Source: Longimicrobiales bacterium (GTDB taxonomy: Bacteria > Gemmatimonadota > Gemmatimonadetes > Longimicrobiales > Gaopeijiaceae). From it: 64,000 nt of DNA. Positions 29,076-57,817 of the stretch are shown in pieces. The notes under the pieces were generated by a model. It saw nothing but the letters and a program-made list of their open reading frames with translations. It was not told the DNA's origin and searched no databases. Position numbers and translations under genes: made by a program. The stretch covers positions 1 to 64,000 of the forward strand of contig JANQDZ010000029.1 of assembly GCA_028278645.1 (NCBI GenBank), in the 5' to 3' direction. The first letter of the stretch is position 1; each line of letters opens with the position of its first letter.

Positions 29076-29100
29076 GTCTATAGACACTCTGTCTATAGAC
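29076..29100. promoter_or_regulatory. Tandem palindromic operator, two GTCTATAGAC sites
   Basis: The perfect 10-bp palindrome GTCTATAGAC occurs at 29076-29085 and again at 29091-29100, 15 bp apart, and each copy is followed by ACTC. It lies about 50 bp upstream of the padR start codon, so autoregulation of the padR-permease unit is the likely purpose. TATAGA within a site could also serve as a -10 box. Confidence 0.75.
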
Positions 29101-29146
29101 ACTCCGTGGACATCCGGTTTTCCGAAGATTCCAGGGGAGAAACACC

Positions 29147-29515
29147 GTGGGAAAAAGCGATCGGGACCCGAGGGAACTCATCCCCCTCAAGCCGGATGTA
29201 TTCCTCATACTCAGTATACTGGCCAGGGGTGTCCGCCACGGTTACGGGATCATGCAGGCCGCCCATACGTGGCCAGGTGGGGGCATGGAGATCCAGGCCG
29301 GGGCCCTCTACCGACGTTTGAAGTGGATGATGGCCGAAGGCTTGATCCAGGAAGTCCGACCTGTTAATCGATCCGAGGACCCTTCAGAGCGAAAACGGGA
29401 TTATGGGTTGACGCCCTTCGGGCGTTTGGTGGCCCGGGAAGAGGCCAAGCGGATGGCAGGTCTCCTGGCGGCCGCACGGGATGCCGAGCTCGTTCCCGGC
29501 GCCGAGGGAGCGTAA
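29147..29515 (+). CDS. PadR-family transcriptional regulator, ADOP-linked (1)
   Basis: A 122-residue winged-helix protein. The PadR core (LKPDVFLILSILARGVRHGYGIMQ, then GALYRRLKWMMAEGLIQE) covers residues 12-95, with a short C-terminal helix for dimerisation. The start is GTG at 29147 with GGGGAG seven bases upstream. The gene ends 6 bp before a large duplicated-permease gene, the standard pairing in Gemmatimonadota and Acidobacteriota. Two palindromic sites upstream suggest that it represses its own promoter. No ligand-binding domain is apparent. Confidence 0.92.
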   Translation: MGKSDRDPRELIPLKPDVFLILSILARGVRHGYGIMQAAHTWPGGGMEIQAGALYRRLKWMMAEGLIQEVRPVNRSEDPSERKRDYGLTPFGRLVAREEAKRMAGLLAAARDAELVPGAEGA

Positions 29516-29521
29516 AACGCC

Positions 29522-32257
29522 ATGGGCGTTTACCTCCGTCGGTGGCTGCTGGGTGCGATCTGTGCCGGCTACGAAGTGTTTCTTCGTTCCTTTCCGAAGG
29601 CCTTCCGGGACCAGGTAGGGGAGGACATCTCGCTTGCCTTCAAACAGGGTTGCGGATCGGCCCTTGAGGGTGCCGGGTTTATTGCGGCCATAGCCTATGC
29701 CTGGCGGGGTTACAAAGACGCCTTGAAGGAGGGGTTTGCGGAGAGAAGAGCGTCTCCTCCCGCCCCCTACGCCGATCGAGCCAAAACAAGGAACCATACC
29801 GTGGACAACCTCTTCCTGGATCTTCGCTTTTCTCTGAGGGCGCTCAGGAAACGCCCGGTGTTTTCCGGGATCGCGATCTTCGTCCTCGCCCTGGGGATCG
29901 GATCTGCCACGGCCATTTTCTCGGTGGTGAATGGCGTACTTTTAAAGCCGTTTCCCTACCCGGACGTCGATCGGCTCGTAGTTCTTTGGAACTCCAATCC
30001 GGAAAGGGGCCAAGACGAGTATCGGATGGCAGCTAGAGGGTTTTTTGAACTCCAACGATCCACGTCGGCTTTTTCGGGAATGGCCGTGGCTGCGGGAGCC
30101 ACTGCAAACCTCACCAGCCCGGATCTTCCACCGTCCCGGGTGAACGGGTCCCTCATTTCGGCCGATTTTTTCCAGGTGCTCGGCGTTCAACCGGTCATGG
30201 GCCGAAGCTTCCGGCCAGAGGAAAACCTCGGTGAACACCGGGTGGTCCTTTTAAGTCATTCGTTATGGGCCGATCGGTTCGGGGGGGACCCCGAGATCAT
30301 AGGGAAGAGGATCGAGATGGACGGGATCCAGGTGGAAGTGGTAGGGGTGATGCCGCGGGTATCCCTCCCAATGGGAGGCTCTTCCCTGAGCCTTCCCGGG
30401 CCGGACGTCCATCTGTTTTGGCGGCCCCTCGATTACGACCAGGCGTGGATCTCTCAGTTCGCGGCACATGTCATGGCCGTTGTTGCCCGCCTGGAACCGG
30501 AGGCCGGGATCTTCCAGGCACGCCAACAGGCCGCATCGGTTGCTTTGTCCCTCGTAAGCGGTGACCAGGCCCCGGAGGGAGAGGAAATCCTGGTTCGTCC
30601 GCTTAAAGAGCAGATCGTCGGGGATATCAGGAGAAACCTACTTGTCCTCTTCGCGGCGGTGGGCCTCCTTCTGGTCCTGGCCTGCGGAAACGTCGCCAAC
30701 CTCCTCCTCACGCGAGCCAAGGATCGGGAACGGGAACTCGCGGTGAGAGCGGCCCTGGGTGCGGGGCGGCCCCGGTTGGTGACACAAAACCTCATGGAAA
30801 CCCTTATTCTTGGCTCTTTTGGGGGGCTGCTGGGTTTGGCCTTGGCACGATGGGGCTCCTCATACTTGGTGGGGAACCTTCCCGAGAACCTCCCTCGGCA
30901 AAGCGAGATCGGAGTGGACGGGTCGGTCCTTCTCTTCACCGTCGGGATCTCTATCGGTGCGTCCCTCTTGGCCATGCTGGTGCCCACGGTCCGAATTGTG
31001 GGCAGGGAGGCAGTAGGTGGTCTGAAAGAGAGCGGGAGAGGAGCCACCTCGGGAATCGGCAAGAACAGAACCAACCGAGCGATCGTTGTCGGACAGGTCG
31101 CTTTGGCAACCGTTCTCTTGTTCGCAGCTGGGTTGCTTTTCCGAAGTCTCCAAACCCTCTCCCGTGTAGACCCGGGCTTTCGATCTGAGGGCGTGACCAT
31201 CGCCCAACTCATGCTACCCGAGATGAAGTACGGGGAGGTGGGTCAGGTTATGTCTTTTTATGATCAGCTTCGTGAACGGGTCGAGGCGCTACCCGGAGTG
31301 TCCGACGTGGCGTTTGCCATGGATCACCCGCTGCAAACCACCTGGTGGAACGGGATCCGTCTGTTGGACCGGGCTCCTCCCGATCCCGAAGAGAGTCCCA
31401 TAGCCATATTCCGACCCGTAAGCGATCGGTACTTCGAGACCGTGGGGATACCGGTTTCGGAAGGAAGGAGCTTTGATTCCGGGGATCGGTTTTCAGATCA
31501 TCCCGTGATGTTGGTAAACCAGGCTCTCGTCCAGCGATATTTCAACGGTGAGAGTCCTTTGGGTGAAAGGATCGGGTTTACCGTAGGACGGAATATCTGG
31601 GGGGAGGAAGCGCCCACGACCTTCGAAATCGTCGGCGTTATCGAGAATGTCCGGTTCAACGGGCTCAGGATGCCGTCCGAGCCGGCCTTTCACATCCCCA
31701 TGCACCAGTTCCCGTACGGAGCTGTGAAGCTTCTGGTCAGGGGCTCAGGTACCATCGGTGATATCCCTGGCCTCATCCAAGACCAGGTGTGGGCTGTGGA
31801 TCCGGATCTCCCGGTGACAAACATCAGGACCTTAGATCAGGTCCTCGCGGAGGTCATGGCACAGGATCGATTCAACGTGCTACTCCTTCAGTACTTTGCT
31901 CTGGTGGCTCTGACCCTGGCCGCTGCGGGGATCTATGGGATTCTCAACTATGTGGTCTCTCAGAGAAAACCCGAAATCGGCGTTCGGGTGGCTTTGGGAG
32001 CTCAGACCTCGTCCGTTCTCGGGTCCGTTGTGGTGGACGCTCTTCGGCTGGGCGGGCTGGGGCTCGGAATCGGACTGGTCGCAGGTTTGGGCGTCTCGCG
32101 GTTCCTAGAAGTACTTCTGTTCGAGGTCCCGCCCCACGACCTGTTGGTCATCTCCGGCGTATGCTCGGTCCTGGGGCTGGTGACGTTGGGCTCGGGCGTG
32201 GTCCCCGCCCTGCGAGCGGCCCGGACGGATCCCATGGACGCCCTTCGGCCGGAGTGA
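29522..32257 (+). CDS. ADOP-type ABC transporter permease (duplicated FtsX/MacB-like) (1)
   Basis: A 911-residue inner-membrane protein. An N-terminal prefix (about 1-77, with FLRSFPKAFRDQVGEDI) typical of PadR-linked permeases is followed by two MacB-like repeats. Each repeat has a first transmembrane helix (about 115-137; about 515-540), a large periplasmic MacB-PCD domain and a three-helix FtsX domain (about 360-490 and 790-905). No ATPase is encoded next to it, as is usual for this orphan class. MacB relatives couple ATP hydrolysis to export of lipoproteins, peptides or drugs across the envelope by mechanotransmission. The substrate is unknown. It is probably co-transcribed with the padR gene 6 bp upstream. 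Confidence 0.93.
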   Translation: MGVYLRRWLLGAICAGYEVFLRSFPKAFRDQVGEDISLAFKQGCGSALEGAGFIAAIAYAWRGYKDALKEGFAERRASPPAPYADRAKTRNHTVDNLFLDLRFSLRALRKRPVFSGIAIFVLALGIGSATAIFSVVNGVLLKPFPYPDVDRLVVLWNSNPERGQDEYRMAARGFFELQRSTSAFSGMAVAAGATANLTSPDLPPSRVNGSLISADFFQVLGVQPVMGRSFRPEENLGEHRVVLLSHSLWADRFGGDPEIIGKRIEMDGIQVEVVGVMPRVSLPMGGSSLSLPGPDVHLFWRPLDYDQAWISQFAAHVMAVVARLEPEAGIFQARQQAASVALSLVSGDQAPEGEEILVRPLKEQIVGDIRRNLLVLFAAVGLLLVLACGNVANLLLTRAKDRERELAVRAALGAGRPRLVTQNLMETLILGSFGGLLGLALARWGSSYLVGNLPENLPRQSEIGVDGSVLLFTVGISIGASLLAMLVPTVRIVGREAVGGLKESGRGATSGIGKNRTNRAIVVGQVALATVLLFAAGLLFRSLQTLSRVDPGFRSEGVTIAQLMLPEMKYGEVGQVMSFYDQLRERVEALPGVSDVAFAMDHPLQTTWWNGIRLLDRAPPDPEESPIAIFRPVSDRYFETVGIPVSEGRSFDSGDRFSDHPVMLVNQALVQRYFNGESPLGERIGFTVGRNIWGEEAPTTFEIVGVIENVRFNGLRMPSEPAFHIPMHQFPYGAVKLLVRGSGTIGDIPGLIQDQVWAVDPDLPVTNIRTLDQVLAEVMAQDRFNVLLLQYFALVALTLAAAGIYGILNYVVSQRKPEIGVRVALGAQTSSVLGSVVVDALRLGGLGLGIGLVAGLGVSRFLEVLLFEVPPHDLLVISGVCSVLGLVTLGSGVVPALRAARTDPMDALRPE

Positions 32258-47070: not shown

Positions 47071-48369
47071 ATGGGTCTCTTCTCCGACAGAACAGCGCTC
47101 ATCGACACCGAAAACGCCTTCAAAGTCGGTCCGTACATCGCCCGACTGGAGGGGGCCGGACACAGGATCATCAAGGCGAATCTGGGCGAACCGGATTTTC
47201 GACTCCCAGAGCACATCGCAGACGAGGTCAAACGCCAGATCGACAACGACTTGACGCACTACGTGGACCCCCAGGGGATCTTCCCCTTGCGGGAAGCGGT
47301 GGCCGCTTCCATGGGGCCCCGTCGCGGGTTGGAGATCGAGGCGGATCGGGTGGTGGTTTTCCCCGGTGCCAAACCGCCCATCGGGCTCTGCCAACAGACC
47401 TACTGCAACCCCGGAGACGAGGTCATATATCCCAGCCCGGGCTTCCCTATCTACGAATCCTTCATTGGGTATGTCGGTGCCAAACCGGTCCCCCTTCATC
47501 TTGAGGAGGAGCGAGGGTTCGCCTTCTCCGGCGAGGATCTCGCCAGCCTGATCACCGACCGGACCAAACTGGTCTTTCTCTGCTTTCCCTCGAATCCTAC
47601 CGGGGGCGTGGCGTCGCGAGAGGAGATGGAAAGCATAGCGGCCGTCATACGGGAGCAGGCTCCGCCGGATTGCCGCGTTTACTCCGACGAGGTCTACGAG
47701 AACATCCTTTTCGACGACGCAGACCACGTCTCAATCGCCTCCTTCACCGGAATGGCGGAGCGGACCGTGATCGTGTCAGGCGCATCCAAGTCCTATTCCT
47801 GGACTGGAGGCCGAATCGGTTGGGCGGTATTCCCGACGGCCGAAGAGGCTCAGGTCTTCAAGAACCTGAACATCAACTACTTCTCTTGTGTCCCGGCCTA
47901 CAATCAGATGGGAGCGAAGCTTGCCATAGAGTCGCCCGTGAGCCCATCGGGGATCGGGAGGATGGTCTCGGCGTTCCAGGAGCGAAGGGACGTAGTCGTT
48001 GCAGGACTGAACGGTATCGATGGCGTGACGTGCCAAATCCCGCGGGGGGCATTCTACGTTTTTCCGAATATCGGAGAAGCGTGCGAGGCTCTAGGAGCCG
48101 TCGAGGCTTTCGAGGGGCTCCCCGCCGAGGTCCGATCCCAAACCAGCCCATCGACCCTTTTTCAGATGTTCCTTCTTTTCCGATACCACGTAGCCACCCT
48201 GGATCGGAGGTCGTTCGGGAAGCTCGGTGCGGGGGGCAAGCACTTCCTCCGCATATCCATCGCCACCGGGATGGACGACTTAAGGGAGGCGGTGGAGCGC
48301 CTCGGGCGGGCTTGTGAGGACGTGGAGGGATTTGCTGCGTATCTGGAATCGGGGAATCCGCTGTATTAA
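47071..48369 (+). CDS. Class I/II pyridoxal-phosphate aminotransferase
   Basis: A 432-residue fold-type I aminotransferase of the aspartate aminotransferase-like group. The PLP lysine is K240 (SGASKSYSWTGGRIG), with SNPTGG (N175), YSDEVYE (D206) and a C-terminal FLRISIA arginine site. Two short inserts (about 340-375) set it apart from typical AspC-like enzymes. Substrate pair unknown; aspartate, alanine or aromatic amino acids are possible. The ribosome site before the ATG is weak (GAGATAATC). The promoter region contains the seven-copy 8-bp repeat. It is divergent from the methionine operon, whose precursor homoserine derives from aspartate. Confidence 0.92.
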   Translation: MGLFSDRTALIDTENAFKVGPYIARLEGAGHRIIKANLGEPDFRLPEHIADEVKRQIDNDLTHYVDPQGIFPLREAVAASMGPRRGLEIEADRVVVFPGAKPPIGLCQQTYCNPGDEVIYPSPGFPIYESFIGYVGAKPVPLHLEEERGFAFSGEDLASLITDRTKLVFLCFPSNPTGGVASREEMESIAAVIREQAPPDCRVYSDEVYENILFDDADHVSIASFTGMAERTVIVSGASKSYSWTGGRIGWAVFPTAEEAQVFKNLNINYFSCVPAYNQMGAKLAIESPVSPSGIGRMVSAFQERRDVVVAGLNGIDGVTCQIPRGAFYVFPNIGEACEALGAVEAFEGLPAEVRSQTSPSTLFQMFLLFRYHVATLDRRSFGKLGAGGKHFLRISIATGMDDLREAVERLGRACEDVEGFAAYLESGNPLY

Positions 48370-48536: not shown

Positions 48537-48902
48537 ATGTCAAAGAGCCTCGGTGAATTCGAACAAGCCATCCTATTTGCTCTCCTCGAGTTGGCCGAGG
48601 ATGACGCCTACGGGGTCCGTATCCGGGAGGTCATCGAGGATCGTACCGGCAGGACCATCTCCTCGGGGGCGGTTTACACAGCCCTTGATAGGATGGAGGA
48701 CCGGGGCCTGGTGGAGAGTACCCTGGGCGAACCCACGGCGATTAGAGGTGGCCGACGGAAACGCATGTACCGGCTGAGACCAGAAGGCGCCGAGACGCTC
48801 CTCAGATCGGTTAGGCACTTCCAGCAAATTTCGGCCGGACTCCTCCCTCGATTGGAGGCCCGCCTCGGAGGGGGAGCTCCGGCCACCGGGACCGGATCAT
48901 GA
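48537..48902 (+). CDS. PadR-family transcriptional regulator, ADOP-linked (2)
   Basis: A 121-residue winged-helix protein with a typical PadR core (FEQAILFALLELAEDDAYGVRIREVIEDRTGR, then GAVYTALDRMEDRGLVES) at residues 5-90 and a short C-terminal helix. Its stop codon overlaps the ATG of the downstream permease by 4 bp (ATGA), so the two are translationally coupled. An 8-bp inverted repeat in the promoter is the likely binding site. It differs clearly in sequence from the other two PadR proteins in the window, so each probably recognises its own operator. Confidence 0.92.
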   Translation: MSKSLGEFEQAILFALLELAEDDAYGVRIREVIEDRTGRTISSGAVYTALDRMEDRGLVESTLGEPTAIRGGRRKRMYRLRPEGAETLLRSVRHFQQISAGLLPRLEARLGGGAPATGTGS

Positions 48903-51580
48903 TGCTCGGCCGAGGACTGGCCGCCATAATCCGTGGCCGCGGTGCCGAGGGCCTCCGTGGGGATCTCGAAGAGGCCCACCGAAGAAGGGTGGCTTCTGGC
49001 CGAAAGAAGCCAGGCAGGGCCTACGCGGCCGACGCCCTCCGATCGCTCCTGTCCTGGTATAGCCCTGCTGAGATCGGCAGACGTAGCCGTAGGGCCAGGA
49101 TGGATGGATCTCGATCCCGTCCCCCCGCCGAGGTGCCGCGGGGAAGGGAATGGGACGGATGGAGAAGGGATCTCCTGCTTGCCATTCGTGGTCTTAGCCG
49201 GAAGCCTGGGTCAGCGGCTTTGGTCCTCTTCACTCTGTCTCTGGGCATCGGGGTCAGCGTCACGGTATTCACGGTCTTTAATACCCTCGTCCTCAGGCCC
49301 CTGCCGTTCGGCGACTCCGACGCACTAATCCGCATTCGCCAGACCCACGAGGTCCCGGGGCAGCCTCCCCGGGCCACTTCGGTCACCGGGCAGAACTTCA
49401 CGGCTTGGCGGGAGGGGGCGGCCCAGTTCTCGGACATGGCGGCTGCTCGGTACCGCACCCTCACGCTGTCTGGGGAAGGGTCAGCGGAGCGGGTGGTGGG
49501 GATCGGTGCAACCTGGAACCACTTCCGGGTGCTAGGCGTGGCACCAGTCCTGGGCAGGACGTTCCAAGCCGACGAGGACAGAGCGGGGAGCCCAGCTCCG
49601 GTGGCCGTCATCTCCCACAGCCTGTGGAGTCGCCGATTCGGTCAGGCCCTCGAGGCTGTAGGAAGTGAGATGGTGATAAACGGGCGCCCGCACACCGTCC
49701 TCGGGGTCTTGCCGCCGGGGTTTCGGTACCCGTACTCGGCCGAGATCTGGGTTCCCCTGGGGTTGGGCCCGGAATCGGAGGAGTGGACCCGGGGCAACCT
49801 GAATATCTCGGCCCGCCTCGGTCCAGGCTCCTCCATCCAGCTCGCCCGGGAGGAGATGGAGGCCGTCGCCCAACGCCTGGAGGAAGAGCGTCCCGAAACC
49901 AACGAGGGCGTTGGTGTGGCTCTGGTTACAATCGAGGCCGAGGTTCTGGAGGGGATGGATGCCAAAGTGAAGGCTCTGCTGGGGGCTGCCCTCTTCGTAC
50001 TCCTCATCGCCTGTGCCAACGTGGCCACCATCGTCATGGCCCGGTTGCAACGGGCACAGGCTGAGATGGCCGTCCGCCTCGCTTTGGGTGCCAGTCGGCG
50101 CGATATGGCCCGTCCTATCCTCGCCGAAGGTCTCGTCTTGGGCCTGTCGGCTGGATTCATTGGGATTGTCCTCGCCGCGTGGGCCGGCCCGGCCCTGTCG
50201 GCAATGAGTCCTGTAGACGACCTCGGCCCCTTCTTCCAGTCCATCCGGGTAGACGAGCAGGTGGTGGCATTCGGCATTGGGGCCGGTCTGGTGGTAGCGA
50301 TTCTGTTCTCCCTCCCTGCCATCTTTCACGCCACCGATGCCCGGATCGGATCTCTCCTACGGGGCGTGAGGGGCGTGGTGGGAAACCGTCGGGAGCGGAG
50401 GGTCCTGGACGGATTAGTGGTTGCTGAGGTGGCGATCGCTGTGGTCCTCCTCACGGGCGCGGGCCTCATGCTGAAGACTCTCCAGAACCTCCAACGCCGC
50501 GAAATGGGCATCGAACCCCGGGGACTTGTGACTTTTGGTGTGGCTCCTTCCATCGGGGGTTATGAAGCCCTGCCCGACCGCCTGGCGTTCCTCGACCGGG
50601 TATTGGAGCGGGTCGAGGCGATCCCCGAAGTGGAGACTGTAGGCTTCACCAATTTCAACCCGTTGAGGGATCAAGGATGGAGTGCAGCGCTTTGGCCCGA
50701 GGGAGACCCGTCCTTCCCCGAAGGCCAAACCCTACCGGTGAACCATCGCGGTGTATCCCACGGTTACTTCCAGGCGGCGGGGACCGAACTGGTGGCTGGC
50801 CGGGGGTTCACACGGGCCGACGACACCGATGCGCCTCATGTCGTGGTTCTCAGCGAGAGCCTAGCGGAAGGACTCTGGCCGGGTGAGAGCGCTCTGGGTC
50901 GTCGTGTGAGGGCAGGGCTACCGTCCACGGGCGGACCTGTTTTCACTGTGGTGGGGGTGGCCGAGAATGTTGCCGACTTTGGGGTCCTCAGCGATACCTG
51001 GTATCGTCCTTATCGGCAGGACCCAACGGAGTTCACGACCCGGACCTTGGAGGTCTTCGTCAGAACCACCGACCAACCCACCGCCGTCATTGAGAGAGTC
51101 CGGCAGGTGATACAGGAGATCGATCCGAACCTCCCCGTGTTCCGCATTGAGACGGGGGAGGAAATCGTTCGGTTCGAGCGCCGTGGAGAGACTTTCACCA
51201 CCTTTCTCCTCGCCCTTTTTGCCTCCATGGGCCTTCTCCTGGCCGCTGTCGGGATCTACGGAGTCCTTTCCCATGCAGTGACCCGTCGGTGGCAAGAGTT
51301 GAGTGTTCGGGTTGCGTTGGGCGCGAAGGCGGGTACGATCCTGGGCCTTGTGCTTGGAGGGTCGTTCTCCGTCGTCGGGTTGGGCCTTCTGTTGGGTCTT
51401 GGTGCCGCCGGAGTTCTGACCAGGTTCATCTCGAGCTTCCTGGTAGGCGTGAGTCCTTTGGATCCCGGCGTTTTCTGCGCCATCGCAGTCGGGACTCTGT
51501 CCGTAGCCGGCCTTGCGGGAGGAATCCCGGCATGGAGGGCCACTCGGGTGGACCCGAGGACGGCTTTGCAGGAAGAGTAG
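48899..51580 (+). CDS. ADOP-type ABC transporter permease (duplicated FtsX/MacB-like) (2)
   Basis: An 893-residue membrane protein with the same plan as the permease at 29.5 kb. A basic N-terminal prefix (about 1-75, AEGLRGDLEEAHRRRVASG) precedes a first membrane helix (about 100-122), a MacB-PCD periplasmic domain, a first FtsX domain (about 355-480), a second MacB-PCD domain and a final FtsX domain (about 775-890, VRVALGAKAGTILGLVLGGSF). It has no own ATPase. The ATG overlaps the padR stop. The export substrate is unknown. The prefix, although diverged, is the same type of module as in the other ADOP permease and in the DUF2723 protein downstream. Confidence 0.93.
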   Translation: MMLGRGLAAIIRGRGAEGLRGDLEEAHRRRVASGRKKPGRAYAADALRSLLSWYSPAEIGRRSRRARMDGSRSRPPAEVPRGREWDGWRRDLLLAIRGLSRKPGSAALVLFTLSLGIGVSVTVFTVFNTLVLRPLPFGDSDALIRIRQTHEVPGQPPRATSVTGQNFTAWREGAAQFSDMAAARYRTLTLSGEGSAERVVGIGATWNHFRVLGVAPVLGRTFQADEDRAGSPAPVAVISHSLWSRRFGQALEAVGSEMVINGRPHTVLGVLPPGFRYPYSAEIWVPLGLGPESEEWTRGNLNISARLGPGSSIQLAREEMEAVAQRLEEERPETNEGVGVALVTIEAEVLEGMDAKVKALLGAALFVLLIACANVATIVMARLQRAQAEMAVRLALGASRRDMARPILAEGLVLGLSAGFIGIVLAAWAGPALSAMSPVDDLGPFFQSIRVDEQVVAFGIGAGLVVAILFSLPAIFHATDARIGSLLRGVRGVVGNRRERRVLDGLVVAEVAIAVVLLTGAGLMLKTLQNLQRREMGIEPRGLVTFGVAPSIGGYEALPDRLAFLDRVLERVEAIPEVETVGFTNFNPLRDQGWSAALWPEGDPSFPEGQTLPVNHRGVSHGYFQAAGTELVAGRGFTRADDTDAPHVVVLSESLAEGLWPGESALGRRVRAGLPSTGGPVFTVVGVAENVADFGVLSDTWYRPYRQDPTEFTTRTLEVFVRTTDQPTAVIERVRQVIQEIDPNLPVFRIETGEEIVRFERRGETFTTFLLALFASMGLLLAAVGIYGVLSHAVTRRWQELSVRVALGAKAGTILGLVLGGSFSVVGLGLLLGLGAAGVLTRFISSFLVGVSPLDPGVFCAIAVGTLSVAGLAGGIPAWRATRVDPRTALQEE

Positions 51581-51691
51581 GACCAGGGTAGGCCTGCTGC
51601 TTGGTCGAACCAGGGCAGAGGTGAACCTCCCCTGTTGGTTTTTCCTGCTTCTCTCGGGGAAGTGGATACCTGGCTTACCTCGGACTATGTC

Positions 51692-51720
51692 TTGCCTCGC
51701 TATAACGCGCCGCGATATAT
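51692..51720 (+). promoter_or_regulatory. Promoter overlapped by near-perfect palindrome, third padR gene
   Basis: TTGCCT (51692-51697) and TATATT (51715-51720) are 17 bp apart. A palindrome with 9-bp arms, TATAACGCG (51701-51709) and CGCGATATA (51711-51719), one mismatch and a 1-bp centre, covers the spacer and most of the -10 box. Binding there would block RNA polymerase. Confidence 0.68.
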
Positions 51721-51804
51721 TCCAGAGCGAAGAAAACTGACCGAGTTCCTCGGCCCTTTTTCACTTGGTTACTCCTTCCTCCCTCCTTCAGGCCGGAGAA
51801 TAAC

Positions 51805-52170
51805 ATGAAGGATTCCCACGGCGATCTGGAAGAGCTGACTCCCCTGTCGACGCCCGTCTTCGAAATCCTATTAGCCCTCGCAGACGCGGACCGGCACGGT
51901 TACGCCATTATGCAGGAGGTGGAGGAGCGAACAGAGGGAACCGTTCGCCTCGGGCCCGGCACCCTATACGGGGCAATCAAACGCCTTCGTGAGAAAGGGC
52001 TGATTAAGGAACGGTTTGATGAGCCGGAGTCGGGGGAACAGGAGCGCCGGCGGGTCTACTCCCTGACAGGGCGGGGTCGTGCGCTAGCCGTCCTTGAGTC
52101 CAGACGGCTGGCACGGCTGGTGGAGTCGGCCCGGGCGAAATGTCTGATCGAGGCCGGAGTAGACGCGTGA
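51805..52170 (+). CDS. PadR-family transcriptional regulator linked to DUF2723 gene (3)
   Basis: A 121-residue winged-helix protein with a PadR core (STPVFEILLALADADRHGYAIMQEVEERTEGTVRLGPGTLYGAIKRL) at residues 12-90 and a C-terminal helix (ALAVLESRRLARLVESARAK). The ATG follows GGCCGGAGAATAAC. Its stop codon overlaps the GTG start of the next gene (GTGA), implying coupling. The strong palindromic site about 85 bp upstream is the probable operator. In this family a PadR of this kind normally controls an ADOP permease; here the partner is a DUF2723 protein. Confidence 0.92.
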   Translation: MKDSHGDLEELTPLSTPVFEILLALADADRHGYAIMQEVEERTEGTVRLGPGTLYGAIKRLREKGLIKERFDEPESGEQERRRVYSLTGRGRALAVLESRRLARLVESARAKCLIEAGVDA

Positions 52171-54782
52171 GCACCATCCGATTGTACGGGCTTCTACTTC
52201 GGGCCTACCCGACCTCATTTCGGTCCGAGTACGGACCGGAGATGCTGAACACGATCCAACAGCTTGCGGCGCGTAGGGAGTACCGAGGTTCAATTGGACG
52301 GGTACGCCTTGGCCTACGGACGGTTCCGGACCTTCTAAGAGGAGCCGCGGTTGAGAGGATTCGGGAAGCCAAGGGATCCGGAGTTCGCCCGTCATACGGC
52401 TACGCCCTGGGGGCGGCTGCGGGGGTGTGGGTTCTTTATGTCGTTACCCTGGCTCCCACGGCGGCCTTCTGGGACGCGGGGGAGTACATAACCGCCGCCC
52501 ATATCCTCGGCATCCCGCATCCACCAGGGAACCCACTTTTTGTCCTCATCGCTCACGCCTGGGAGAAGGTTCTCTCCCCGCTGGATCTATCCGTAGCGGT
52601 CTGCATCAACCTGCTCAGCGCCAGCGCCAGTGCGATGGCGCACGGGTTTTGGTTCCTCGTGATGGAGCGCCTACTGCTGGCTTGGACTCCTAACCGCACG
52701 GTCCGGAGGGTAGGGGCCCTGACGGCGGTGCTGGTGAGCGCCACGGCTTTCACGGTCTGGAACCAGAGTAACGTGAACGAGAAGGTGTATACCCTCAGTC
52801 TGTTGAGCGTGGCGGCAGTTTCGTGGCTCGCTCTTGTATGGCGGGACAAGCGTTCGGTTGGAGGAGGGGATGCCCGGTGGCTGGTGCTGGTTGCTTTCCT
52901 TATTGCCCTAACCGCTTCGAACCACCTCATGGGTGTTCTCGTAGCCCCGGCCGTCCTGGCCATGGTTCTTATGACCAGGGCAAGGTCCCTGGTACGCCCG
53001 AGGGTATGGCTTGGTGCGGCGGTGCTGGGAGCGCTGGCTCTCTCTGTGCACCTCTTCCTGCCATACCGGGCTGCCCAGGGTCCGATTCTTTCCGAGGGTG
53101 ACCCACGATGCGAGCAATGGACAGATGCTGTGGTGAGCCTTTACACCTGGGGAGGGAGCACGATTCCCGGCCTCGGATGGAAGTTGCCGGACGGTTGCGC
53201 GGCCCTTTCCAGTTCATTGAGCCGGGAGCAATACAGGAAACCTCCCGTGGACCAGGATCCCACGGTTTACCCCTACCAGGACCTTCCCCGTAGCCCTGGA
53301 CTGATCAGGGCACAGCTGGTCCAGTATGCTCAGTACTTCGACTGGCAGTGGGCCCGTTCGATTACGGGCCACGCGACGGTATTTGGGGGAGCACGCCCGT
53401 TGGTCACCCTCCTCTTCCTCGCGCTTGGGCTGTTCGGGGCAGCCGCCCACGTCCGAAGAGACCGCGCAGGGGGAACCTACGTGGGAGTGTTGTTCCTGAC
53501 TTATTCCATTGGCCTGGTCTGGTATCTCAACTTTAAATACGGGTATTCCCTCGAATGGGATCGCTTTCCAAGCCCAGATGCGCACGAGGTACGGGAGCGA
53601 GACTACTTCTTCATGATTGGGTTCAGTGTGTGGGGGCTCTGGGTCGGGTGCGGTCTCACTACGCTGTGGCAGCGCGTGGCAGGCTGGATAGAGCGAAACC
53701 GAGCCTTCCTCCGGCCCAAGATCCTGCCATCCGGGGAATCGTGGCCTTCTCCGTTGTTGGCTGCATCGCCGGTGCTTTTCCTGGCGTTGGTTCCGATGGG
53801 GTTGAACTGGAGCTGGGCGACCCGGGCTGACGACTGGGCCGCCCGTGACTTCGCGTACAACATGCTCATGAGCGTCGAACCGTACGGGATACTCTTCACC
53901 TACGGTGACAATGACACGTTTCCGCTTTGGTATCTCCAAGAGGTGGAAGGGGTTCGACGCGATGTCACGGTTGCGGTGACGAGCTACCTGAATACCTCTT
54001 GGTACGTGAAGCAACTCCGGGACCTCTCACATCCGTGCTCCCCGGGGGAAGATCCCTCGCTCGACCCGACTCGAATCATCTGCCAACGCCCGTATCAACC
54101 AAGGAATATGCCACCTGCGCTGCTAGCCGTAGGGGTCCCTGCGAGCATGCCTCCGCCCGGTGACTCGGCCTTCCCACTCTCCGACAAGGAGATCGAATCC
54201 ATCACGGCCGTGACTCAGCTAACCGATCGGCCCATCCGGTATACCGCTGGCGCCATAGACGCGGTTATCCCCGAGGGAACCATCCTCGAACCGGCTGATA
54301 CTTTTGTGGCCGTCGTCCTGCAGCGGAACCTCGGGAAGCGACCGATCCACTTCTCGGCACCGGCACCAACACTTAGGCGGTTGGGGTTGGAAGACTATGG
54401 GGTCAGGGTCGGTTTGACGATCCAACTAGATGAGAACCTACCCTCTCCGGACCGGCGAAGATCGGATCTTTTAGCCTCTCCCCAACCGGGGGAGGACCCG
54501 CTGCGCAGGGTTCTGATTCCCGGAGCAAGTGATATCGGCCTAAGGACCCCTTACATCGACGTCACCCGGACTGATACCCTATTCGATACCGTATTCCGAC
54601 GTCGTGGCCATCTCTTGGACCCAGATAGGCCCTGGGCGGATCCCGCGACGAACAGTATCCTGATGCAATACGCTTCAGCCCATCTTTCACTGGCGGCAGC
54701 CTGGGAGGCACTGGGCGAGAGGGACCGCTCCAGCCATCATTTTGAACGCTATACATGGTGGATGGACCGGGGGACTGAATAG
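52167..54782 (+). CDS. DUF2723 membrane protein (putative glycosyltransferase) with ADOP-type N-terminal prefix
   Basis: An 871-residue membrane protein. Residues 1-65 (LYGLLLRAYPTSFRSEYGPEM ... VPDLLRGAAVERI) match the short prefix usually found at the N-terminus of PadR-linked ADOP permeases. About 11 membrane helices of a DUF2723 protein follow, with the active-site-like FWDAGEYITAAHILGIPHPPGNPL near residues 102-125, a pattern shared with lipid-linked-sugar mannosyltransferases. A C-terminal soluble region (about 555-871) contains GDNDTFPLWYLQEVEGVRRDV. GTG 52167 is chosen because it overlaps the padR stop (GTGA) and has GGAG seven bases upstream. It probably glycosylates an envelope component; the acceptor is unknown. 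Confidence 0.88.
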   Translation: MSTIRLYGLLLRAYPTSFRSEYGPEMLNTIQQLAARREYRGSIGRVRLGLRTVPDLLRGAAVERIREAKGSGVRPSYGYALGAAAGVWVLYVVTLAPTAAFWDAGEYITAAHILGIPHPPGNPLFVLIAHAWEKVLSPLDLSVAVCINLLSASASAMAHGFWFLVMERLLLAWTPNRTVRRVGALTAVLVSATAFTVWNQSNVNEKVYTLSLLSVAAVSWLALVWRDKRSVGGGDARWLVLVAFLIALTASNHLMGVLVAPAVLAMVLMTRARSLVRPRVWLGAAVLGALALSVHLFLPYRAAQGPILSEGDPRCEQWTDAVVSLYTWGGSTIPGLGWKLPDGCAALSSSLSREQYRKPPVDQDPTVYPYQDLPRSPGLIRAQLVQYAQYFDWQWARSITGHATVFGGARPLVTLLFLALGLFGAAAHVRRDRAGGTYVGVLFLTYSIGLVWYLNFKYGYSLEWDRFPSPDAHEVRERDYFFMIGFSVWGLWVGCGLTTLWQRVAGWIERNRAFLRPKILPSGESWPSPLLAASPVLFLALVPMGLNWSWATRADDWAARDFAYNMLMSVEPYGILFTYGDNDTFPLWYLQEVEGVRRDVTVAVTSYLNTSWYVKQLRDLSHPCSPGEDPSLDPTRIICQRPYQPRNMPPALLAVGVPASMPPPGDSAFPLSDKEIESITAVTQLTDRPIRYTAGAIDAVIPEGTILEPADTFVAVVLQRNLGKRPIHFSAPAPTLRRLGLEDYGVRVGLTIQLDENLPSPDRRRSDLLASPQPGEDPLRRVLIPGASDIGLRTPYIDVTRTDTLFDTVFRRRGHLLDPDRPWADPATNSILMQYASAHLSLAAAWEALGERDRSSHHFERYTWWMDRGTE

Positions 54783-55150: not shown

Positions 55151-55522
55151 GTGAGTATCCCTACGGCCTTTGATCTTTCGAAAATGGAACTTCTCATGGA
55201 CGCTGACGGCGTTGAGGTCCGTCGAGGCCAAGCCGGGCCGGACAAAACCCTCCTTTGGATCAAGGCCCCGAAAGGTTTTGATTTCGGCCCAGCCCTCAAG
55301 GGTCTCCCTCACGACATGTGCTGCTGTGAGCACTGGGGGATGATCACGTCCGGGCGGATGAACATCACCACCCATGACGGGCAGTCATTGTCCTTGACCT
55401 CCGGCCAGGCCTTCCACCTACTTCCCGGACACCTCCCGGAATTTCCAGAAGATTGCTCCTGGTACGAGTTCTCGCCGACTGACCAGGCCGAGCGCCTTCT
55501 CTCTCACATGGGCCTTGGTTAA
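55151..55522 (+). CDS. Small cupin-like protein with CCC motif
   Basis: A 123-residue protein with a single cupin-like barrel (about 30-118). The conserved block reads DMCCCEHWGMITSGRM, with three consecutive cysteines (57-59) next to H61, at the position where relatives have a D-x-C-x-C-P-H-W-G motif. The Cys/His cluster may bind a metal. There is no signal peptide. The start is GTG 55151, with GGAGG six bases upstream. A serine/threonine kinase gene starts 60 bp downstream on the same strand, and the two are probably co-transcribed. Function unknown; a small-molecule or metal sensor would fit the context. Confidence 0.82.
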   Translation: MSIPTAFDLSKMELLMDADGVEVRRGQAGPDKTLLWIKAPKGFDFGPALKGLPHDMCCCEHWGMITSGRMNITTHDGQSLSLTSGQAFHLLPGHLPEFPEDCSWYEFSPTDQAERLLSHMGLG

Positions 55523-55582: not shown

Positions 55583-57817
55583 ATGACGCGGATTTGGGAG
55601 AGGTACGAACTTACCGATGAGCTGGGCCGGGGCGGCATGGCGGTGGTCCATCGGGCTCGAGATGGTCGCCACGGCCGGGACGTCGCGGTCAAGGTGATGC
55701 TGCCTGCGGTGGCTGAAGCCATTGGGCCCGGGAGGTTTCTTCGCGAAATCGAGACCGCCGCGCGACTTCAACACCCCCATATCGTTCCGGTCTTCGACTC
55801 CGGGGAAGCAGACGGCCAGCTGTTCTTTGTAATGCCCCTGATCGAAGGCGAGTCTCTACGTGACGCTTTGGACCGTGACGGCCGACTCCCGGTCGGGGAG
55901 GCGGTGCGGATCGTGCGGGAAGTCGCTGATGCGCTCGAATACGCCCACGGCGAGGGCGTGATCCACCGCGATCTGAAGCCGGCGAACATACTGATGAACC
56001 GCGGGCATGCTATGCTCAGCGACTTCGGCGTCGCCCAGGTATGCGGAAACGATGCCCGGACGACGCTGACAGGGGCAGGCATGGCTTTGGGGACCCCGGC
56101 ATACATGAGCCCCGAATTAGCTGCTGGTGATAACGACGTGGGCCCGGCCTCCGACGTCTACGCACTGGGATGTATCCTCTCGGAGCTGCTCACGGGCGAG
56201 CCCGTTTTCGACGGTCCCAACTTTCAGGCCATCCTGGTCAAACGTCTCACCACCGATGCGCCCCGTGTACGGACGCGGCGTCCTGAGGTCCCAATGGCAT
56301 GCGACGAGGCCATTGCTCGTGCCCTGCACCGTGATCCGGCGGATCGCTTCAGGAGCGCACGGGAATTTGGGGACGCCCTCGCCGATTGCGATGCACCTGG
56401 GCCGGGCCCACGAGACCTGGCCGGCGACCGGTCGATCGTGGTGCTTCCGTTCGACAACCTCTCACCCGAGCGAGACGATGCCTACCTCGCCGACGGCCTG
56501 ACGGAGGAGTTAACAGCGGACCTCAGCCGTATCAACTCGCTCCGTGTGATCGCCCGTAACTCGGCCGCCGCCGCCCATCAACGGACCCGGGACCTGAAAG
56601 AGATTGCACAGCTCCTGGACGTCAGATTTCTGCTTGAAGGGAGTGTACGGCGCGCCGGTTCGCAGCTCCGTATCACAGCGCAGTTGATTGACGGGACCAC
56701 CGACGCCCACCTCTGGGCCGAGAAGTACTCCGGCACCATGGATGACGTGTTCGAGATGCAGGAACGCATCTCGGGAAGCATCGTCGAGGAGTTGCGTACC
56801 CGACTCACCGCGGAGGATAAGGCCGAGCGGTCGGTTCCGGTGACCGACACTGAGACCTACGAACTCTACTTGCGGGCGAGGCACATGTTGGGCCAGTCCC
56901 CCCAGCACCTGCCCGACGCAACCCGTCTGCTGGAGGAGGTGATGCGGCGGGATGCGCAGTTTGCCCCGGCTTACACCGCCCTCGGCACGCCGTTGATGGT
57001 CAGCTCGATCTTCGGCTACATCGAGCCTCAGACGGCGTGGGCGCGGATCCAGGAGCTGGCCGACCGAGCTCTGGGAGCTGACCCCCGGTCCGGGCCGGCA
57101 CACCAACTCCTGGCAGCGGTGGCCGTGTTCCGTGATTGGCGGTGGGGCGATGCCGAGCGGCTCTATGCCAGGGCCGCCGAACTCGAACCAGGCGCAGGGT
57201 TCGACCACTTCCTGCACGCTTTCTTCCTTGCATTCACCGGCGACAAAGCTGCCGGCCTCCGCGCAGCGCGGGAGGGACGTCAGCTAGACCCGCTCAGCTT
57301 CATGGGCTTCCTGACCGAGGCCATGATGTTGGGCTACACTGGTGATTTCGACTCTGCCGCTCCGCTCGCGGAACGACCGATCGCCCTGGACCCCAACTAC
57401 GCTGAAGGCCACCATATCGCTGGGTACATCGAACTTGGCCGAAAGAACTTCGATCGGGCTGCGAAGCACCTGGAAAGCGCCGTCGAGTTGAGCCACCGTG
57501 CGAGCTGGCCGGTGGCCAAATATGGCTGTGCCCTGCATGGCCTGGGCCGAACCGACGAGGCCCGGGCGCTTCTGGAAGAGTTGGAAGCCCGAGCCGAAGA
57601 CGATCCGATGATCTGTGGGTCGGCGGTCGCGACACTGCATCTGCATCTCGGTGACCATTCGAGCTTCTACCGATGGATGTATCGAGCATACGATAGGCGC
57701 GATCCATTCGCCCTCGGACTCCATGGAGAATTCCTGTGGAACCCGGCCCGGTCCGAGCCCCAATTCCAGGACCTACTCACCCATGTTGGGCTGGAGGCCT
57801 CAGTGCCATCCGAGTGA
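55583..57817 (+). CDS. Serine/threonine protein kinase with TolB-like and TPR domains
   Basis: A 744-residue protein with a complete Hanks-type kinase domain (residues 8-265): GRGGMA loop, K37, HRDLKPAN (D130, N135) and DFG (D147). A TolB/FlgO-like domain (about 283-400, IVVLPFDNLSPERDDAYLADGLTEELT) and TPR-like helical repeats (about 430-740) follow. No transmembrane segment is visible between the kinase and the rest, unlike many relatives, so it may be cytoplasmic. The combination is common in Gemmatimonadota and related phyla. The 3' end overlaps the end of an oppositely oriented broken sigma factor gene by 18 bp. Confidence 0.92.
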   Translation: MTRIWERYELTDELGRGGMAVVHRARDGRHGRDVAVKVMLPAVAEAIGPGRFLREIETAARLQHPHIVPVFDSGEADGQLFFVMPLIEGESLRDALDRDGRLPVGEAVRIVREVADALEYAHGEGVIHRDLKPANILMNRGHAMLSDFGVAQVCGNDARTTLTGAGMALGTPAYMSPELAAGDNDVGPASDVYALGCILSELLTGEPVFDGPNFQAILVKRLTTDAPRVRTRRPEVPMACDEAIARALHRDPADRFRSAREFGDALADCDAPGPGPRDLAGDRSIVVLPFDNLSPERDDAYLADGLTEELTADLSRINSLRVIARNSAAAAHQRTRDLKEIAQLLDVRFLLEGSVRRAGSQLRITAQLIDGTTDAHLWAEKYSGTMDDVFEMQERISGSIVEELRTRLTAEDKAERSVPVTDTETYELYLRARHMLGQSPQHLPDATRLLEEVMRRDAQFAPAYTALGTPLMVSSIFGYIEPQTAWARIQELADRALGADPRSGPAHQLLAAVAVFRDWRWGDAERLYARAAELEPGAGFDHFLHAFFLAFTGDKAAGLRAAREGRQLDPLSFMGFLTEAMMLGYTGDFDSAAPLAERPIALDPNYAEGHHIAGYIELGRKNFDRAAKHLESAVELSHRASWPVAKYGCALHGLGRTDEARALLEELEARAEDDPMICGSAVATLHLHLGDHSSFYRWMYRAYDRRDPFALGLHGEFLWNPARSEPQFQDLLTHVGLEASVPSE

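Follow-up and report, generated by a model that had tools for sequence, protein, structure and literature searches.

A portable N-terminal prefix domain linked to padR genes on a bacterial TMEM260-like protein and other carriers: a candidate PadR-docking module

Results

A padR gene coupled to a fused TMEM260-like gene

The window, the whole 64,000-nucleotide stretch of DNA analysed here, comes from a draft Longimicrobiales genome of 4.9 Mb in 103 contigs. It contains a padR gene and, behind it, a frame open to 54782, which is where the original prediction had placed them (Table 1). The PadR product scores 67.4 bits against PF03551, for which the cut-off is 27, and is thus a member of the PadR family. 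Its nearest matches in the PDB are short PadR-family regulators (E 9e-9 to 3.5e-6). The second gene, 52167-54782, has a GTG start and encodes a fused protein of 871 aa. Its start/stop coupling to padR, also predicted, is seen directly in the sequence and is kept in four homologues. Because of this conservation the GTG at 52167, inside the GTGA, is preferred as the start codon and is likely to be the one used, rather than the ATG at 52140.

Table 1. Features of the locus, its upstream region and a comparison permease
Feature	Position	Strand	Basis or remark
Candidate PadR operator 1	51686-51704	.	TATGTCTTGCCTCGCTATA, 10/12 to TATATC-N7-GATATA
Sigma70-like promoter TTGCCT-18-TATATT	51692..51721	+	9/12, consensus match only; mean 0.2 such sites per shuffle
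Candidate PadR operator 2	51701-51719	.	TATAACGCGCCGCGATATA, 11/12 to TATATC-N7-GATATA
padR	51805..52170	+	121-aa PadR-family repressor; PF03551 E 1.1e-18
GTGA start/stop overlap coupling padR and the fused gene	52167..52170	+	Sequence; kept in L019, L047, L048, L049
Prefix domain, residues 1-68 of the fused protein	52167..52370	+	Three predicted helices; no Pfam/NCBIfam family
TMEM260-like multi-TM body (PF11028, formerly DUF2723; GT117-type)	52395..54782	+	Pfam match, TM helix 77-102
padR of the comparison ADOP permease	about 29099-29515	+	Stop-to-stop frame, directly upstream of the permease
Comparison ADOP permease with the same prefix and its own padR	29522..32257	+	Prefix profile and read-out

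Several neighbours lie outside the two-gene cassette. A class I/II aminotransferase gene (47071-48369) precedes a neighbouring ADOP permease (48899-51580) with a different, perm_prefix_2-like N-terminus. On the other side, a 123-aa frame without a Pfam match (55151-55522) is followed by a gene for a Ser/Thr protein kinase with TPR repeats (55583-57817).

PF11028, which Pfam now names 'Protein O-mannosyl-transferase TMEM260-like', spans residues 103-273 of the fused protein (E 3.4e-40; 138.2 bits against a gathering threshold of 24.2). By sequence, the body is a clear member of this TMEM260/GT117 protein O-mannosyltransferase family, and it may be an active glycosyltransferase. The MacB_PCD, FtsX and ADOP models have no match in the fused protein, which lacks the duplicated permease body of ADOP (TIGR03434). 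A full-length AlphaFold model, built on a four-row alignment and too poor for a fold test (pLDDT 54), gave no significant Foldseek match. The motif FWDAGEY comes after the TM1 helix, and its D103 and E106 are invariant among the aligned fused proteins. In GT-C enzymes the luminal loop that follows TM1, the first one, contains conserved acidic residues (PMC11292533). By analogy, the acidic catalytic-type motif FWDAGEY would lie in the first extracytoplasmic loop, which would leave the prefix on the cytoplasmic side.

The prefix domain

Residues 1-70 of the fused protein are covered by no Pfam or NCBIfam model. The conserved core of the prefix reads YP..FR.EYG.EM...F.D..R ... W ..... D. In 61 aligned prefixes P15 is invariant and R19 near-invariant, and Y7, L10, L11, Y14, F18, G23, M26, F30, D32, R35, W49 and D55 are strongly conserved; the window protein has replacements at F30, D32, R35 and W49. 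AlphaFold predicts three helices for the prefix alone (3-13, 16-35 and 43-69; pLDDT 67), and the same helices appear in the full-length model. No match to the prefix model was found in the PDB by Foldseek and VIA-align, a profile search of the PDB sequences returned chance-level matches only, and a literature search on DUF2723 and on 'permease prefix domain' found nothing.

As a single query, residues 1-70 retrieve from the host genome twelve other frames, 891-1044 aa long, the best with E 4.5e-7. The ADOP-length frames that were read out start with LY.LLLRLYP..FR.EYG.EM and continue as ADOP/MacB-like permeases, mostly behind a PadR frame. With a 16-sequence prefix profile, 20 places in the genome reach significance: 19 in ADOP-length frames, again of 891-1044 aa, and the fused gene itself. 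The profile thus recovers ADOP N-termini, the point set beforehand as the one on which the predicted match to the ADOP prefix could fail. On the same strand upstream there is a PadR in 18 of the 20 places, one of these (L072, at a contig end) being located only roughly. The likeness to the ADOP permeases (TIGR03434-type) comprises the same prefix, the same upstream PadR and often the same overlap; the difference is in the body, a duplicated FtsX/MacB permease in ADOP and TMEM260-like in the fused protein.

In the host genome and six relatives the prefix is carried by TMEM260 and by ADOPs, a few of which are broken or truncated; in the relatives, ADOP-length carriers were classed as ADOP by length. 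Fragments of other lengths in the relatives (L089-L096) were considered as further carriers and rejected, as they read out as truncated or broken ADOPs or noise. TMEM260 is therefore the sole other carrier seen in the profile-searched genomes of the window's order. The HAAS and perm_prefix_2 models match other ADOPs of the host genome, at loci different from those of this prefix. The host ADOPs carry at least three prefix types, and the one described here is unnamed in the Pfam and NCBIfam libraries. Some 40 ADOP-length frames with one of the three types are present in the 4.9 Mb, an unusual expansion.

Recurrence and ancestry of the fusion

A full-length search of 118 relatives gave four further prefix-TMEM260 proteins (G073, G082, G088 and G090), which align from residue 4-8 on. 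Directly upstream of each is a padR with 56-63% identity, and all four loci have a stop/start overlap between the two genes. The pair is therefore present in five Gemmatimonadota genomes of three families, namely the host and four genomes from two other families. At the thresholds used, no additional fused gene came up among 154 genomes from the order or 394 from the class, which makes the distribution a patchy one. When the surroundings of the fused loci were compared, the common element was the two-gene pair, with one further match between ADOP neighbours at 35% identity.

When the tree is built from the TMEM260 part alone, one clade (support 100/99) unites the five fused proteins and is separate from the plain TMEM260 copies, which group largely by family. 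The fusion is shown by this tree as a clade of single origin. The non-prefixed TMEM260 homologues examined, including both paralogues of the host genome, have neither the prefix nor a significant PadR alongside, and in this the fused protein differs from them. Could the fusion be an artefact of assembly or of gene calling, or have two neighbours been joined here by chance? The host assembly is a draft in 103 contigs, and nothing was found in favour of such a reading. We give it practically no credence, because the same architecture recurs in independent genomes; its presence in five genomes and three families and the single 100/99 clade refute it. The fusion is real and old, and not a unique assembly artefact, the other point set beforehand on which the original prediction could fail.

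PadR linkage and range of carriers

To keep the prefix itself out of the search, we built a profile from five PadRs alone, scanned a collection of 84,980 species with it and retained the 80 top-scoring loci. Judging by record titles, these come from at least six phyla: Gemmatimonadota, Acidobacteriota, Chloroflexota, Cyanobacteria, Actinomycetota (Rubrobacter, Agromyces) and Verrucomicrobia. The longest downstream frame carries the prefix in 69 of the 78 loci with a usable downstream frame. When all frames were read, the prefix was directly downstream of padR in 77 of the 78 (the exception is L100), a count that carries a bias, since the PadRs used as query had themselves been taken from loci with the prefix. 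The commonest arrangement is a 4-base overlap, GTGA or ATGA (30/69). Searches seeded with the prefix elsewhere in the phylum gave 23 loci, 21 of them with a PadR directly upstream; of the two without one, L227 is a truncated ADOP frame beside IS/integrase-like genes. For both prefix-seeded sets together the figure is 39/43.

The 69 sorted carriers comprise 23 ADOP permeases, 3 TMEM260 proteins and 43 others. The others include two proteins with Peptidase_S41, two signal peptidases I, a PP2C phosphatase (L105), a Clp_N protein with a glyoxalase domain (L156) and one with a weak Tiki/ChaN match below the cut-off (L149). Also among them are many unannotated proteins of about 100-440 aa, mostly with predicted TM segments. 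The PP2C and Clp_N/glyoxalase carriers, both from Ktedonobacterales, have no predicted TM segments and so argue against a purely membrane-insertion role of the prefix. In the S41 carriers (L145 and L160, Acidobacteriota) padR is followed by the prefix, one TM helix and then a protease of the C-terminal processing type. The signal peptidase carriers (L130 and L155, Bryobacterales) match Peptidase_S26 with E about 1e-43, start with the prefix and adjoin a padR; each is possibly an extra LepB under PadR control.

The list of fused bodies that the original prediction had proposed comprises ADOP, TMEM260, signal peptidase I, S41, PP2C, Clp_N/glyoxalase and small membrane proteins. The statement that the prefix is normally seen only on ADOP permeases does not survive this list, in which 43 of the 69 carriers are neither ADOP nor TMEM260. 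The idea of a portable module that defines PadR-controlled membrane proteins stands in part: the prefix is portable and PadR-linked (77/78, 18/20 and 21/23), but the PP2C and Clp_N/glyoxalase carriers have no predicted TM segment. These comparisons support the view of the prefix as a portable module tied to padR genes and attached to many unrelated proteins.

Candidate operator and promoter

The two candidate operators in the window overlap and lie 15 bp apart (51686..51719). Operators of these padR genes often form such arrays, overlapping with a 15-bp pitch and shared half-sites, as in L102, L116 and L121. Of 72 homologous regions upstream of padR, 65 contain the 19-bp palindrome TATATC-N7-GATATA at 10/12 or better, against about 1.1 expected, and in 32 of them it is perfect (12/12). 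It is found about 27-121 bp ahead of the padR start. The 4.9 Mb of the host genome contain a single copy of a strict form, TATANCGN5CGNTATA, and this copy lies over the padR promoter of the window. The sigma70-like site is the only promoter-like site of the region and overlaps both candidate operators. A general geometry of the -35 and -10 elements relative to the operator was considered and rejected, as an exact TTGACA is found in only seven loci and the window has TTGCCT; in those seven, the -10 region is the 3' operator half in six and the 5' half in one. From its position and conservation, the palindrome is probably the site that PadR binds, and local autoregulation of padR is the plain reading of the single strict site.

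Discussion

We consider it somewhat probable that an autorepressing PadR and a cytoplasmic, PadR-docking prefix form a self-contained regulatory cassette. PadR would repress its own gene by binding TATATC-N7-GATATA over its own promoter and would thereby control both padR and the coupled gene. The coupled gene would yield the TMEM260-type enzyme, with its N-terminal three-helix prefix remaining in the cytoplasm. The prefix would be a dedicated PadR-docking domain, through which the effector protein binds PadR. Bound PadR would be withdrawn from the DNA, or altered, so that the amount or state of the effector is reported to the promoter. The fused protein would then act like a membrane-anchored anti-repressor. 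There is precedent for the local part of this scheme in Listeria, where the PadRs LstR and Lmo0599 act chiefly on the operons that encode them (PMC6624303).

Linkage, coupling, the operator and the swapping of bodies suggest that PadR and the prefix are a unit into which different effectors plug. PadR and prefix distances correlate across 41 non-ADOP loci with unrelated bodies (r 0.62). For 38 loci, almost all of them ADOP, agreement with the prefix is closer for PadR than for the body (r 0.79 vs 0.62). The co-divergence is weak when the host's 17 paralogous pairs are taken by themselves (r 0.20, p 0.07), and the whole signal is confounded by shared descent. The unit and the correlations together lead us to favour a docking role, in which the prefix would bind PadR. 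Simple co-expression would also account for the linkage and the coupling.

Does this PadR need a protein partner at all? Many PadRs control transporters without one, and short PadRs such as LmrR bind drugs directly. The PadR of the window is homologous over most of its chain to such solved short proteins and therefore may need no partner. This is the main rival to docking: PadR would be an ordinary LmrR-like autorepressor that senses a small molecule, and the prefix, without contact to PadR, would serve its own protein. We hold such a ligand-sensing PadR to be rather unlikely, and equally so the role that the prefix would then have, for instance that of an element for membrane insertion, stability or oligomerisation kept by co-transcription. 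The bodies change completely while PadR and the prefix remain paired, and an insertion role leaves the PP2C and Clp_N/glyoxalase carriers unexplained. The gene organisation also differs from that of LmrR-type repressors, and here the proposed partner is a protein domain, with no drug ligand known.

Or is the prefix a divergent HAAS or perm_prefix_2 domain, and the locus a further member of a published system? A portable helical domain coupled to PadR has already been proposed for the dyad of HAAS and PadR-like wHTH (PMC11237479; Pfam PF22564, DUF1700, DUF1048), in which a GxP groove is suggested to pass the signal of HAAS on to PadR, as an alternative to two-component signalling. Both systems have an N-terminal domain of about three helices, a standalone coupled padR and fusions to diverse multi-TM and some intracellular proteins, and the HAAS paper includes FtsX/MacB fusions such as ACO32024.1 (PMC11237479). 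The prefix has the three consecutive helices, in a model of pLDDT 67, and the obligate standalone PadR neighbour. However, the HAAS, DUF1700, perm_prefix_1 and perm_prefix_2 models have no match in the 61 prefixes at E 1, none of which reaches the 35-bit threshold of NF038404 (perm_prefix_2), and hhalign against a 9-sequence HAAS set finds nothing. The GxP of HAAS helix 3 is also absent: helix 3 of the prefix has no conserved G or P, and its conserved residues are W49, D55, S/T59 and E63. Like the prefix, the NF038404 and perm_prefix_1 types are short N-terminal prefixes on ADOPs of the host genome. The motif order of perm_prefix_2 is weakly collinear with that of the prefix (hhalign P 8.7%, E 0.004), but the comparison is not significant and the core is another one (GDLEE..); both the HAAS and the perm_prefix_2 models mark other ADOPs. 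We therefore regard a divergent HAAS or perm_prefix_2 domain as possible but improbable.

The prefix system probably works like HAAS-PadR, while membership in the HAAS family is unsupported by sequence or profile matches such as PF22564 and DUF1700. What is known is the general concept, a portable helical domain coupled to PadR. What differs is the prefix sequence, with its core YP..FR.EYG.EM, and the set of proteins that bear the domain, which are here TMEM260, signal peptidase I, S41, PP2C and Clp_N. Whether the prefix is an undescribed PadR-docking family independent of HAAS, found in at least six phyla on at least six unrelated effector types with PadR partners that share one operator, is in our judgement evenly balanced. 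Part of this novelty falls if the published ADOP example ACO32024.1 carries the prefix.

Conclusions

ADOP permeases number dozens in genomes like that of the host, and for the extensions at their N-termini we found no role that had been tested. Should the prefix dock with PadR, a simple switch of effector and repressor would be present in such genomes in many copies, and a bacterial TMEM260 homologue would gain a regulatory link. The operator and the domain profile together allow the regulons to be listed. ADOP permeases, the TMEM260 body, signal peptidase I, an S41 protease and a PP2C phosphatase would then all be wired to transcription by one protein-protein switch.
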